A stretch of DNA of 64,000 nt, taken from positions 1 to 64,000 of the forward strand of contig NZ_LAVL01000032.1 in assembly GCF_001083785.1 (NCBI RefSeq), written 5' to 3'. Under the pieces are notes generated by a model that was given only the letters and a program-made list of their open reading frames with translations, was not told the DNA's origin and ran no database searches. The first letter of the stretch is position 1. Each line of letters opens with the position of its first letter. Both the position numbers and the translations under genes were made by a program. The DNA comes from Nonomuraea sp. SBT364. GTDB taxonomy: Bacteria > Actinomycetota > Actinomycetes > Streptosporangiales > Streptosporangiaceae. Positions 34,311 through 38,997 of the stretch are shown here, piece by piece.

Positions 34311-34351
34311 TGCCGGTAATTGCTGGTAATTACTGGAACTGTTGGTACAGT
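34311..34351 (+). promoter_or_regulatory. 10-bp-period repeats and candidate leaderless promoter of the split-Dna2 operon
   Basis: Four imperfect 10-bp units begin at 34311, 34321, 34331 and 34341 (TGCCGGTAAT, TGCTGGTAAT, TACTGGAACT, GTTGGTACAG). The last runs into TACAGT (34346-34351), a -10-like box 6 nt before the ATG at 34358. A start there would give a leaderless mRNA. The helical phasing suggests a cooperative binding site. Confidence 0.5.
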
Positions 34352-34357
34352 CGCGCC

Positions 34358-35158
34358 ATGAGTGACCGGCTGGACGATCTCGAAAGGCGGATCGACGAGC
34401 TCCGGGCCGGTGTCCGTACGGCGATGCGCGGCCGGGACACGGCCTCGGCCCGCACCCTGCGCGCCGAGCTCCGCACCGCGGAGCGCGCCTGGGACGCGCT
34501 GGTCAGCACCCCCGGTGAGCCCGCGAAGGCGGCCTCGCCGGGGCGCGGCGACGGGCTGCGGCTGGTCACCGTGCGCGAGCAGGTGCACCAGGCGCTGGCG
34601 CTGCTGGACGCGCCCGCGCAGGCGCGGCTGATCGTCGCCGTGAGCCAGGCGTTCTTCGCCGGCACCCTGCGCAGTGCCCAGCTCACCAGCCTGCGCCGCG
34701 ACGAGGAGCGCTCGTTCCGGTCCTCGCCGTACGGCAGGCCGTACTACCTGTGCGCGGCCCTGACCGACCGCCTCTCCCCCGCGCGCGCCCTGCTCACGCT
34801 CAGCACCTGGCCGGTGGAGCGCCGGGTCGTCGGGCCGCTCAGCCCGCGCGTCGACTTCCTGACCGGCGCCGTCCGGGTCGCCGGGCGCCTGGAGGAGCTC
34901 GGCGAGCCGCCGCCGGAGGCCGAACGGCTGCTGGCCAGGATGGCGCGCAACATCCCGGGCGCCGGCGGCGACGGGCTGGGCCCGCCCGACCCGGCGCGGG
35001 TGGCCGGGGCGGCCCGGCGGGAGCTGGCGGTGCACGCGGCGCGCGACGCGCGGGACCGGCAGGAGCTGGCCGGTCGCGCGACATCCCAGCTCGGTGACGT
35101 GGCAAGACTGTTCGGCGCCGCTACGCTGAACACCGTCGCAAGATCAGGAGACCGATGA
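34358..35158 (+). CDS. Unknown coiled-coil protein, first gene of the split-Dna2-like operon
   Basis: I do not recognise a family. The 266-residue protein starts with a charged helix likely to form a coiled coil (RLDDLERRIDELRAGVRT, then ARTLRAELRTAERAWDALVS). A middle domain has LRLVTVREQVHQALALLDAP, RLIVAVSQAFFAGTLRSAQL and DEERSFRSSPYGRPYYLCAA, which could be winged-helix-like, and a segment STWPVERRVVGPLSPRVDFL. The C-terminus is helical and Arg/Ala-rich. No catalytic motif or membrane segment is visible. The next gene starts in its stop codon (ATGA), and the two after that are linked the same way, so it should work with the nuclease and helicase, perhaps as a DNA-binding or scaffold subunit. 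Confidence 0.8.
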   Translation: MSDRLDDLERRIDELRAGVRTAMRGRDTASARTLRAELRTAERAWDALVSTPGEPAKAASPGRGDGLRLVTVREQVHQALALLDAPAQARLIVAVSQAFFAGTLRSAQLTSLRRDEERSFRSSPYGRPYYLCAALTDRLSPARALLTLSTWPVERRVVGPLSPRVDFLTGAVRVAGRLEELGEPPPEAERLLARMARNIPGAGGDGLGPPDPARVAGAARRELAVHAARDARDRQELAGRATSQLGDVARLFGAATLNTVARSGDR

Positions 35159-36252
35159 ACCGGCTTGACGCGTTGCGCGGCACGACGCCGCCGAAGCCGC
35201 ATGACGCCCGGGCGATCGCCGCGCTGGCGGCCAACCCCGGCTGCGCCCGCCGGGCGCTGATGGACGGCGCCGGGATCGACAAGGGCGCCGCCGCGCGCCA
35301 CCTGGGCTTCCCCGCGCCGTTCGGGCAGTCGCCGTTCGCGATCACGCGCGGCAACGCGTTCGAGGCGCTGGTGAAGGCCGACGGGTGCGCCGAGCTGCTG
35401 CGGATGCTGCGCGAGCTGCTCGGCCTGCCGATCGCCGAGGTCGCCTACCACGACGTGGAGAACGTCGGCGCGCACCTGCGTCACACCCACACCCGCGCGC
35501 TCATCGACCGCGCGGTCCGGGACGAGGACGCGGGCACCGTCTACGACCATCCGCTGTTCACGCTGGAGATCGCCGGGCACACCGCCTATCTGGAGCCGGA
35601 CGTGGTGGCGTTCCAGCTCGGCGGCCGCTTCCACATCGTGGAGATCAAGTCGTTCGCGGTGATCGACGGGCAGGCCGACCCGGCGGCGGCAGCGGCGGCG
35701 GCCCGGCAGGCGGCCGTCTACGTGCTGGCGCTGCGCGGGCAGCTGGAGGAGCTGGGGCACGACCCGCTGCGCGTCTCGCACGAGGTGGTGCTGGTCTGCC
35801 CCGAGAACTTCGCCAACCGGCCCGTCGCGACGCTGGTCGACGTGCGCAGGCAGCTCGCCGTGCTGCGCCGCCAGCTCGCCCGCATGACGGGCCTCGACCG
35901 GCTGCTCGACGCGCTGCCCGAGGGGCTCACGTTCGACCTGATGCCGGACGCCGACGGGCTGCCGTCCCGGCCGGTGGCCGAGCTGGCCGACGCGGTGCGC
36001 GGGGCGGCGGCCCGTTACGCGCCCGACTGCCTGTCCACCTGCGACCTGTGCTTCTTCTGCCGTGACGAGGCCCGCCAGGAGGGCGCCTCCGACCTGCTGG
36101 GCCGGCACGTCCGCGACGAGCTGGGCGGCGTCGCCTCCGTCGGCGAGGCGCTGGCCCTGGCCGACGGCGTGCGCGCCCCGGCCGACGGCCAGGAGGAGAT
36201 CGCCCGCCTGCTGCGCGGCGCCGAACGGCTGCGCAGGGAGTGCCTGACGTGA
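35155..36252 (+). CDS. Cas4/RecB-like PD-(D/E)XK nuclease with Fe-S cluster cysteines
   Basis: A 365-residue predicted nuclease. The PD-(D/E)XK core is Asp149 in YLEPDVVAFQL, Glu163-x-Lys165 in HIVEIKSFAVIDG, and the RecB-type Gln185/Tyr189 in AARQAAVYVLALRG. Cys30 near the N-terminus (NPGCARRALMD) and Cys292, 296, 299 and 302 near the C-terminus (CLSTCDLCFFC) match the split Fe-S cluster layout of Cas4, AddB and Dna2, in which the cluster staples the nuclease fold. It should be a DNA exo- or endonuclease on single strands. Both neighbouring genes overlap by 4 bases. No cas1, cas2 or repeat array is present, so it is not a CRISPR Cas4. Confidence 0.85.
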   Translation: MNRLDALRGTTPPKPHDARAIAALAANPGCARRALMDGAGIDKGAAARHLGFPAPFGQSPFAITRGNAFEALVKADGCAELLRMLRELLGLPIAEVAYHDVENVGAHLRHTHTRALIDRAVRDEDAGTVYDHPLFTLEIAGHTAYLEPDVVAFQLGGRFHIVEIKSFAVIDGQADPAAAAAAARQAAVYVLALRGQLEELGHDPLRVSHEVVLVCPENFANRPVATLVDVRRQLAVLRRQLARMTGLDRLLDALPEGLTFDLMPDADGLPSRPVAELADAVRGAAARYAPDCLSTCDLCFFCRDEARQEGASDLLGRHVRDELGGVASVGEALALADGVRAPADGQEEIARLLRGAERLRRECLT

Positions 36253-37676
36253 GCCTGCTCACCTCGCTGGCCCGGCTGCGGGCCGTGGAAGCGGGCCGGG
36301 CGCAGCCGATCGCGACCGTGCGCCACTGTCACCTGTCCGAGCGGCCGATGGTGTTCATCCCGCTGAAGCTGTCCGGGGAGGCGGCCGCGCCGCTGGCCGC
36401 CATGCTCGGCACCGACCGCGACGCGCCCCGGCTGCTGGTGGTGACCCAGCCGCGCAACCGCGACCTGCGCTTCGCCTGGGCGGCCGAGCTGGCCGGGGAG
36501 CTGGTGCCGTACATCGGCAGCTTCGCGGGCAGCACCGAGACGGTGGAGCGCAGGAACGCCGACCCGTACGAGCGGGCGCTGGACGCGCCGCAGCTGCTGC
36601 TGCCGAACCGGGCGGGCGTGGCGTTCACCCGGCTGCTGGGCCGCTCCACCCGCTTCCGCCGCACCGACGGCCCGTACCCGGTGCCGCAGGGGGTGCCGCT
36701 GCTGGGCCGCTGGCTGACGTACTTCGCCGAGCGGGCCGCCCACCCGGGCTCGTCGCTGACCATGGCCGCGACGGACGAGCTGGGCCGGCACTGGGCGAGC
36801 GGGCAGAGCGCGCTGGAGGACGCGAACCTGGCGGCGCTGGTCGCCTGGATCACCACCGGGCCGGCCGACGACGCCGAGGACCCGCTGATCTGGCCGCCCG
36901 CCGGCCCGGCGACCGATCCCGGGTTCGACGCCGAGGTGCTGGCGCCGGCGATGGAGAGCGAGTCCGCCGAGCGCATCACCGAGGCGCTGCGCACCCAGCT
37001 CGCCCCCACCTGGCGGCTCATGTGGCAGGCGGTCGACCTGCTGCGCGCGCTGGAGCCGGGCGCGTCCGTCGCCCAGCGGTGGGAGCAGGACCGGGCCTCG
37101 TTCAGCGGCATGGCCGCGCAGATCGGTGAGGGCGCGCCGCCGCAGGCCCGGCGTGACGGCGCGGTGGCCGCCGCCGCCCGCCTGGCCCGCATGGAACGCG
37201 CCCAGGCCGCCTACGACGTGCAGCGCGCCTACGACGACCCGCTCGTCATGGCCGAATACCGGCTGACCGGCGAGGCGTTCGCGGGCGAGGTCGTCGAGAC
37301 CGTCCCGGACAACACCGAGGGCGAGGGCCGCTCGCGCAAGCTGCGCCCGCTCGTGGTGGTCAAGACCGACGATCCGGTACGGATCCCGCCCGGCACGGCG
37401 CTGGGCACGCCGCAGCGGCGCGGGCAGGGCGCGGAGCTCGTGTCGGCGGACGGCGGCCAGGTCACCCTCAAGATCACCAAGGGCATGGGCCGGGGCAGGA
37501 CGCCCACGCCGGGCGCGGTCCCGGAGACCGGCGAGCGGGTCTGCTACACCTCGCTCACCGACGACTTCCAGGGCGCGCCGGCGCTGCCGGAGGCCGAGGC
37601 CACGCCGTGGACGCACGGCGGGCCGCCGCCGGCCTACGTGCCCGCCGACGAGGACGCCCGGGAGGAATGGTCGTGA
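36249..37676 (+). CDS. Unknown protein with possible beta-barrel end, third gene of the split-Dna2-like operon
   Basis: I do not recognise a family for the 475-residue protein. The first 130 residues look alpha/beta (ARLRAVEAGRAQPIATVRHC, PMVFIPLKLSGEAAAPLA, RLLVVTQPRNRDLRFAW). The middle (about 230-330) is helical, and the last 150 residues are strand-rich: RKLRPLVVVKTDDPVRIPPG, GQGAELVSADGGQVTLKITK and GERVCYTSL. That end resembles the beta-barrel that precedes the helicase core in Dna2/Upf1-type enzymes, but this is a low-level impression. Gene order nuclease, this protein, helicase equals domain order in Dna2. GTG start in a GTGA overlap with the nuclease stop. Confidence 0.75.
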   Translation: MSLLTSLARLRAVEAGRAQPIATVRHCHLSERPMVFIPLKLSGEAAAPLAAMLGTDRDAPRLLVVTQPRNRDLRFAWAAELAGELVPYIGSFAGSTETVERRNADPYERALDAPQLLLPNRAGVAFTRLLGRSTRFRRTDGPYPVPQGVPLLGRWLTYFAERAAHPGSSLTMAATDELGRHWASGQSALEDANLAALVAWITTGPADDAEDPLIWPPAGPATDPGFDAEVLAPAMESESAERITEALRTQLAPTWRLMWQAVDLLRALEPGASVAQRWEQDRASFSGMAAQIGEGAPPQARRDGAVAAAARLARMERAQAAYDVQRAYDDPLVMAEYRLTGEAFAGEVVETVPDNTEGEGRSRKLRPLVVVKTDDPVRIPPGTALGTPQRRGQGAELVSADGGQVTLKITKGMGRGRTPTPGAVPETGERVCYTSLTDDFQGAPALPEAEATPWTHGGPPPAYVPADEDAREEWS

Positions 37677-38965
37677 CCGAACCCACGCCCGAGCAGGTCA
37701 TCAGGGCCGTGCTCGACGACCTGCCGCGCCACCGGGGCGTGGTGGTCGACTCGCCGCCGGGCGCGGGCAAGTCCACGCTGGTCGTCCGGGCCGCCGCGCA
37801 CCTCGCCGCGACCGGCGAGCCGCTGATGATCGTCGCGCAGACCAACGAGCAGGTCGACGACCTGGTGACGCGCCTGTGCGACAAGCATCCGGACCTGACC
37901 GTCGGCAGGCTGTCGGCCGGCGGCTACGTGGCCCCGGCGCGGCTGCTGGACCTGCCCGGCGTCACCGTCGGCACCCGCGTCCAGGACCTCGGCGACCCGG
38001 ACATCGTCATCGCGACCGCCGACAAGTGGGCGTGGATCGCGGGCCGGACGTGGCCGTGGGCGATCGTCGACGAGGCCTACCAGATGCGCTCGGACAAGCT
38101 GCTGCGCATCGCCGGGCTGTTCGAGCGGGCGCTGTTCGTGGGCGATCCGGGGCAGCTCGACCCGTTCTCGATCGTCGACGGCGACCGGTGGTCCGGGCTG
38201 TCGTGGGACCCGCTGCAGAGCGCGGTGTCGGTGCTGCTGCGGCACAACCCGGACCTGCCGGTGCACCGGCTGCCGGTGTCGTGGCGGCTGCCCGCGTCGG
38301 CGGCGCCGGTGGTGTCGCGGGCGTTCTACCCGTTCACCGGGTTCCGCTCGGGCACCGGGCCGGGCGAGCGGCGGCTGGAGCTGGCCACCGGCGGCATGGG
38401 CACCGTGCACGACCGGGCGCTGGAGGAGGCCGCCCACTCCGGGTGGGCGCTGCTGGAGCTGCCGAACCGGCACACCGTGCGCACCGACGGCGAGGCTGTC
38501 GAGGCGGTGGCGCTGCTGGCCGCGCGGCTGCTGCAGCGCGGCGCGGTCGCGGGCTCGGAGCAGGGCGAGCGGCCGGTGACGGCGGACCGGATCGCCGTCG
38601 GCGCGGCGCACCGCGACCAGGTGGCGGCGATCCGCGCGGCCGGGCTGCCGCCGGAGATCACCGTCGACACCGCCAACCGGCTGCAGGGCCGCGAGTACGA
38701 CGTGACGATCGTGCTGCACCCGCTGTCGGGGCGGCGCGACGCCACCGCGTTCCATCTGGAGTCGGGGCGGCTGTGCGTGCTGGCGTCACGGCACCGGCAC
38801 GCCTGCGTGGTCGTGGCCAGGGCGGGCATCGCCGAGCTGCTCGACGCCCATCCGTCGGCCGAGCCGGTGCGGCTGGGCGCGCCGGTGAAGTTCCCCGACG
38901 GCTGGGAGGCCAACCAGGCGGTGCTCGACCACCTGGCCGGGCACCGGGTCCAGACCGGATCCTGA
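37673..38965 (+). CDS. Compact SF1B (Upf1/Dna2-like) DNA helicase
   Basis: A 430-residue helicase with only the core. Motif I VVVDSPPGAGKSTLVV (Lys33), Ia MIVAQTNEQVDDLVTRL, II WAIVDEAYQM (Asp133, Glu134; DEAxQ form of Upf1-like enzymes), III ALFVGDPGQLDPF, IV LPVSWRLPASAAPVVS, V VDTANRLQGREYDVTIVL and VI CVLASRHRHACVVVAR. It lacks the N-terminal nuclease and barrel domains of Dna2, which may be supplied by the two genes before it. The GTG at 37673 has GGAGG 7 nt upstream and overlaps the previous stop (GTGA); an in-frame ATG two codons earlier sits too close to that site. A 9-bp tandem repeat begins at its stop codon. Confidence 0.87.
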   Translation: MTEPTPEQVIRAVLDDLPRHRGVVVDSPPGAGKSTLVVRAAAHLAATGEPLMIVAQTNEQVDDLVTRLCDKHPDLTVGRLSAGGYVAPARLLDLPGVTVGTRVQDLGDPDIVIATADKWAWIAGRTWPWAIVDEAYQMRSDKLLRIAGLFERALFVGDPGQLDPFSIVDGDRWSGLSWDPLQSAVSVLLRHNPDLPVHRLPVSWRLPASAAPVVSRAFYPFTGFRSGTGPGERRLELATGGMGTVHDRALEEAAHSGWALLELPNRHTVRTDGEAVEAVALLAARLLQRGAVAGSEQGERPVTADRIAVGAAHRDQVAAIRAAGLPPEITVDTANRLQGREYDVTIVLHPLSGRRDATAFHLESGRLCVLASRHRHACVVVARAGIAELLDAHPSAEPVRLGAPVKFPDGWEANQAVLDHLAGHRVQTGS

Positions 38966-38996
38966 CCTGCCTGACCTGCCTGACCTGCCTGACCTG
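38961..38996. repeat. 9-bp tandem repeat, four perfect copies
   Basis: CCTGACCTG is repeated four times without a mismatch. The first copy contains the helicase stop codon and the array ends 1 bp before the convergent GNAT stop. It may be a slippage-prone minisatellite. Confidence 0.9.
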
Positions 38997-38997
38997 C

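Follow-up and report, generated by a model that had tools for sequence, protein, structure and literature searches.

A four-gene actinomycete operon that probably encodes a Dna2-like nuclease-helicase in separate subunits

Can the nuclease, barrel and motor of a Dna2-like enzyme be divided among separately encoded proteins, and what would such a machine do in the cell? The question is raised by four overlapping genes at positions 34,358 to 38,965 of a 64,000-nucleotide window, the whole stretch of DNA analysed here, from Nonomuraea sp. SBT364 (contig NZ_LAVL01000032.1, positions 1 to 64,000). A preliminary description, made from the sequence alone, had read these genes as a split Dna2-like nuclease-helicase. 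Based on comparison of homologous loci, structure models and analogy with characterised enzymes, we consider it likely that the operon encodes a multi-subunit Dna2-like machine for DNA-end resection, mobile copies of which have been recruited to anti-plasmid islands.

The four reading frames and their junctions are present as first described, all on the forward strand. Gene 1 (34358-35158, 266 amino acids) carries a conserved central RRDEERS...ARPYYLCAAL block and, as had been said of it, is of no known family: searches of Pfam, NCBIfam, PADLOC and PHROGs yielded no usable match, and in the same libraries genes 2 and 3 likewise matched no curated family. Gene 2 (35155-36252, 365 amino acids) is predicted to be a PD-(D/E)XK iron-sulfur (Fe-S) nuclease of the Cas4/AddB/Dna2 type, gene 3 (36249-37676, GTG start, 475 amino acids) a two-domain linker subunit, and gene 4 (37673-38965, GTG start, 430 amino acids) a superfamily 1B (SF1B) helicase core of the Upf1/Dna2-like kind. 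Successive genes are joined by the four-base overlaps ATGA (35155-35158), GTGA (36249-36252) and GTGA (37673-37676).

That the genes belong together, on which the preliminary description had staked its reading, is borne out by a non-random sample of 142 actinomycete loci, taken as one match per locus. Genes 2, 3 and 4 stand in this order in 133 of them, usually together with gene 1 (all four genes in 93, genes 2-3-4 in 40). Four-base overlaps recur between genes 1 and 2 (43/94), 2 and 3 (91/140) and 3 and 4 (103/129), consistent with translational coupling; because of this recurrence and the preserved order, the arrangement is not due to chance. Genes were called by GC3, hence some absences of gene 1, called in 94 of the 142 loci, may be calling errors. 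The gene 4 homologue is not adjacent to gene 3 in four Micromonospora-type genomes (G307, G399, G487 from L207 and G488 from L208), each of which holds a full-length gene 4 elsewhere; in G307 it shares the contig at a distance of about 37 kb. The operon occurs throughout large soil actinomycetes: of 36 genomes from the genus, 34 have gene 2, among them the window's own, as do 48 of 297 in a class sample, and for gene 3 the counts are 110 of 200 in an order sample, 141 of 150 in Streptomyces and 11 of 296 in a phylum sample. In a large set of loci, the chromosomal copies of Streptomyces, no gene 1 was detected. No relatives of gene 2 were found in phage records or viral contigs, and in most species the operon apparently serves a chromosomal, vertically inherited function.

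The assignment of gene 2 is carried by its conserved residues and its modelled fold. The AlphaFold2 model (predicted local distance difference test, pLDDT, 88.5; predicted template-modelling score, pTM, 0.82) contains the PD-(D/E)XK core; its highest-scoring VIA matches are Cas4 (7mi4, Z 9.8), EXO5, MGME1 and AddAB, and Dna2 scores lower (5eax, Z 6.0). The predicted active site, D149 and E163-x-K165 (35599-35649), is mostly kept over the 142 loci (D149 in 133, E163 in 130, K165 in 140), as are Q185 (131) and Y189 (142). Cys30 (codon 35242-35244), the putative first Fe-S ligand, is invariant in all 138 readable rows, and Cys292, Cys296 and Cys302 (36028-36060) are each present in 142 of 142. 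Cys299, likewise proposed as a ligand at first, is a cysteine in just 43 loci and has to be dropped; the likely ligands are hence one distant cysteine, C30, plus C-x3-C-x5-C, a layout close to that of Dna2, AddB and Cas4. Together with the fold these residues uphold the original assignment to the Cas4/AddB/Dna2-type nucleases, with a predicted Fe-S cluster. The Pfam family PDDEXK_1 was matched by one of 45 gene 2 homologues (E 0.0014), and the window's gene 2 gave no match to it.

Every SF1B motif is found in gene 4, including the Walker A motif I, DSPPGAGKSTL (37748-37780; K33 in 133/133 readable rows), and the Walker B motif II, DEAY (38069-38080; D133 and E134 in 135/135). AAA_11, AAA_12, AAA_30 and AAA_19 score above Pfam cut-offs and a profile search of the PDB matched SMUBP-2, DNA2 and Upf1, in agreement with the predicted Upf1/Dna2-like core, while UvrD_C_2 reached an E value of 0.12 only, short of a UvrD-type SF1A assignment. 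Genes 1-4 matched no system among the PADLOC models, in which the helicase part of gene 4 gave only partial hits to larger proteins such as MkoA.

What the core lacks appears to be supplied by gene 3, whose strand-rich C-terminus had been conjectured to be a beta-barrel. In the confident model (pLDDT 90.4, pTM 0.88), residues 301-438 (37149-37562) form a stalk helix and a 1B-type beta-barrel that match IGHMBP2 (4b3g, Z 9.1, root-mean-square deviation (rmsd) 2.2 over 86) and Dna2 (5eaw residues 460-567, Z 7.6, rmsd 2.4 over 95); Z ranges from 7.6 to 9.5 for these two proteins, and Sen1 and Setx were matched as well. The preliminary description had not foreseen the N-terminal domain, residues 31-281 (36339-37091), which adopts in the model a fold like the 3'-5' exonuclease of family-B polymerases (VIA-align, Z ~9.0-9.4 at an rmsd of 3.3-3.8 across ~180 residues), a match of moderate Z taken from the full-length model. 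Its Exo I strand reads (V/I)-P-L, with P38 and L39 conserved at the positions expected for the acids, which makes catalysis unlikely, a positional judgement from the fold range; the domain is probably inactive. E190 does not vary at all, and D191 is almost invariant.

Gene order thus equals the domain order of Dna2, as originally proposed, with the nuclease in gene 2, stalk and barrel at the C-terminus of gene 3, and the SF1B helicase in gene 4. None of the outcomes that the preliminary description had named as telling against it was observed: gene 3 ends in the stalk and barrel, genes 2-3-4 stay together and four predicted Fe-S cysteines do not vary. In the Dna2 structure, a stalk of two helices holds the barrel in place between the nuclease and the helicase (PMC4716839). 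Eukaryotic Dna2, however, is a single chain with an N-terminal OB domain, whereas the three open reading frames are separate in the loci surveyed, and it has no counterpart of the exonuclease-like domain that gene 3 places between nuclease and barrel. As nuclease, barrel and helicase do not share one polypeptide, we call the system Dna2-like, not a Dna2. IGHMBP2, Upf1 and Sen1 have stalk, 1B barrel and helicase core in common with it, but in one chain and without a nuclease subunit.

Because Dna2 has no exonuclease-like domain, the nearest protein in apparent domain order is TM0106/TIGR03491, a fused form that is known but uncharacterised. It appears to share the domain order of gene 2, the two halves of gene 3 and gene 4, namely a RecB/Cas4-like nuclease with C-terminal cysteines, an exonuclease-like RNase_H_2 domain, a pre-helicase region and an AAA_11/AAA_12 helicase, in one chain of 1105-1270 amino acids (20 actinobacterial examples) instead of three chains plus gene 1. 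In hhalign comparison with an alignment of these 20 sequences, gene 4 falls on columns 779-1156 (99.7%, E 5e-26), while the gene 3 barrel is placed weakly on columns 644-721 and the cysteine region of gene 2 on columns 165-305, so that the order is the expected one. Pfam searches of two fused proteins detected RNase_H_2 and helicase in both and PDDEXK_1 in one; for the N-terminal part of gene 3, the fold match is with the exonuclease domains of polymerases and not directly with RNase_H_2. The NCBIfam model TIGR03491 was matched neither by genes 1-4 nor elsewhere in the window's genome.

Other multi-subunit helicase-nucleases are AddAB, AdnAB and RecBCD, and AddB has the same type of Fe-S nuclease. 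Their motors are UvrD-like SF1A enzymes, RecD excepted, whereas the motor here is of the Upf1/Dna2 type. A Cas4-like nuclease is also linked to a helicase, in some cases in defence contexts, in the UvrD-Cas4 and COG1205-Cas4 operons, but these have UvrD or superfamily 2 (SF2) helicases and no gene 3 is described; the word Actinobacteria is absent from the text on such operons (PMC5704561).

Clues to function come from the neighbourhoods. In 21 of the 142 loci the operon has an SbcC-SbcD pair directly beside it, either divergent upstream or codirectional downstream (checked with Pfam in L166 and L206). Parts of Wadjet, of type I, II or III, lie within the fetched flank in 14 of these 21 loci and in none of the other 121, and in two Streptomyces plasmids genes 1-4 directly precede the Wadjet genes JetABCD, with SbcC and SbcD on the other side, although the annotation of L069 shows what seems to be a fragmentary SbcCD. 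PADLOC confirmed JetA1/B1/C1 (L211), JetA2/B2 (L102), JetA2/B2/C2 (L203) and JetA3 (L200); the other assignments come from PLSDB annotation or phmmer matches to PADLOC-confirmed proteins, the weakest being L095 (E 2e-11) and L184 (JetD and JetC only). Neither Wadjet nor SbcCD is homologous to genes 1-4. On a quick tree, the minimum number of changes is five for the SbcCD link, four for Wadjet and seven for Wadjet type. The window's own copy lies in a housekeeping neighbourhood. No literature joining Wadjet and SbcD was found beyond Wadjet in a reference list, in a search that most subscription journals lay outside. That mobile copies sit beside the DNA-break sensor SbcCD and the anti-plasmid system Wadjet points to a machine, as yet undescribed, that processes broken DNA.

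We propose the following mechanism. Gene 4 would act as the motor, with 5' to 3' movement on single-stranded DNA expected from its membership of the SF1B Upf1-like subfamily. Gene 3 would give this motor its missing stalk and 1B barrel, with the probably inactive exonuclease-like domain serving as a scaffold or DNA grip, and the strand would be threaded through to the Fe-S nuclease of gene 2 and cut there, by analogy with Dna2. Gene 1 may be a further subunit with an accessory or regulatory role. That the proteins assemble into a single complex is inferred, as are its polarity and substrate, the threaded-strand model drawing on the Dna2 structure (PMC4716839) and on the work on Wadjet, which cuts circular and not linear DNA (PMC10586767). 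In the islands, Wadjet would linearise circular plasmids, SbcCD (Mre11-Rad50) would sense or open the linear ends, and the split Dna2-like machine would resect the ends so opened. The earlier suggestion of a resection or anti-phage machine is still one that we infer, with the SbcCD and Wadjet linkage in other genomes favouring DNA-end processing and anti-plasmid work.

Several observations weigh against this proposal. The Foldseek search returned no PDB match at E ≤ 0.001 for the gene 2 and gene 3 models, and their VIA Z scores, from 6 to 10, are middling. The likeness of genes 2 and 3 to the fused protein is one of colinearity alone: hhalign probabilities of 7.7% and 0.6%, respectively, are not significant and too weak for homology to be claimed. 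Independent pairs on the tree are too few to give a test of the SbcCD-Wadjet coupling power. The window's copy has metabolic and regulatory genes as neighbours, not SbcCD or Wadjet; two SbcD_C matches lie on other contigs of its genome, in which JetD_C gave no match. Finally, D149, E163 or K165 is replaced in 19 of the 142 loci with all four Fe-S cysteines retained (L073, L078, L079, L082, L084-L087, L097, L098, L112-L114, L157, L167, L172, L178, L182 and L188), a loss that any model must explain.

The housekeeping surroundings of the window's copy and the lack of a JetD match in its genome also speak for the strongest alternative, which we rate at somewhat below an even chance, that of a purely housekeeping repair complex in which the split proteins replace the fused TM0106/TIGR03491 of other actinobacteria and SbcCD and Wadjet are adjacent merely as shared repair genes and by hitch-hiking. 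Near-universal presence in Nonomuraea and Streptomyces agrees with this. So does the class sample, in which the fused protein exceeds its cut-off in 2 of 48 genomes with a split gene 2 and in 97 of 249 without (Fisher p 2.4e-7), a count that ignores phylogeny and thus describes the distribution and is no proof of replacement. However, direct SbcCD adjacency in two arrangements, three Wadjet types and plasmid copies are more regular than loose hitch-hiking would be, and housekeeping repair overlaps with the resection machine proposed here, differing from it for the mobile copies only. For the latter, a more far-reaching idea, which we entertain tentatively and would not favour at present, is that the split Dna2-like complex works with SbcCD and Wadjet as a single composite system against plasmids or phages. 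Circular foreign DNA would be cut by Wadjet, and Rad50-Mre11 with a bacterial equivalent of Dna2 would then resect the linear DNA and destroy it, which would make the system a prokaryotic counterpart to the pairing of MRX with Dna2 in eukaryotes.

The altered nuclease sites, which arose by at least four changes on the tree, would be explained if the complex were a DNA-translocating or DNA-binding clamp in which cutting is secondary or lost. We regard such a clamp as improbable, since 123 of the 142 loci retain the nuclease site and at least two genomes with an altered gene 2 (G001 and G007) also carry an intact-type copy. Least probable is a machine directed at RNA or R-loops through an Upf1/IGHMBP2/Sen1-like helicase and an RNase-H-like fold, for although the likeness of gene 4 and of the gene 3 barrel to IGHMBP2, Upf1, Sen1 and Setx is as close as that to Dna2, the known relatives of the Cas4/AddB/Dna2-type nuclease and the neighbours SbcCD and Wadjet act on DNA, and the exonuclease-like domain is without catalytic acids.

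Upstream of gene 1 lies a conserved 17-bp direct repeat, CTGGTAATTACTGGAAC (34323-34339), probably a dedicated operator. Eighteen bases separate the pattern CTGGNAANTNCTGGNAC from the gene 1 ATG, and among them is TACAGT (34346-34351), a -10-like hexamer six bases before the ATG that may indicate a leaderless transcript or a promoter with its own operator. The pattern has a single match in the 10-Mb genome, and the reversed-pattern control has one as well. With a looser form, 2.75 Mb of homologous loci yielded 40 matches, every one of them on the operon strand and upstream of gene 2: 36 at a distance of 600-1100 bases from it and four at 1182-1215, of which three (L077, L137, L176) precede a gene 1 that was called longer and one (L163) stands in a locus without a called gene 1. 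A CTGG direct repeat with a 10-11 bp period and a -10-like hexamer also occurs in L069, L070, L133-L145 and others, TAnnnT is common among relatives at the position of TACAGT, and plasmid-borne copies of the operon carry the repeat too. This suggests a dedicated regulator, possibly encoded by the operon. A search for a PafBC-type damage promoter upstream of the operon found none.

Some candidates were set aside and some further features noted. Profile matches of gene 2 to designed proteins among PDB sequences cover ~30 residues and are spurious, those of gene 3 were short and spurious or lacking, and Foldseek by itself returned generic beta-barrels and reductases as top rows for gene 3, which gave no identification. 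At and just past the end of gene 4 (38963-38997), CTGACCTGC units form a short tandem repeat. The gene immediately behind gene 4 in the SbcCD-linked operon of L095 (13410-15650) codes for an SF2 DEAD/ResIII helicase with HA domains. The Rhodococcus plasmid pBD2 (L071, 6152-10137) and pROB01 (L072, 5089-10191) carry related operons without gene 2, in the order VWA/DUF2201, small open reading frame, 400-amino-acid protein and gene 4-like helicase (E about 1e-50), the 400-residue protein showing weak likeness to gene 3 (E 0.005 and 7e-4); in pROB01 an AAA ATPase gene stands in front. These operons suggest that the pairing of gene 3 with gene 4 extends more widely.

In conclusion, the operon is present in nearly all Streptomyces species sampled, yet its genes 1-3 are nameless in the family libraries searched. 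If it does encode a Dna2-like machine in separable subunits, nuclease, barrel and motor could be mutated and studied independently, and the linkage to SbcCD and Wadjet makes the fate of plasmids after linearisation by Wadjet a testable question.

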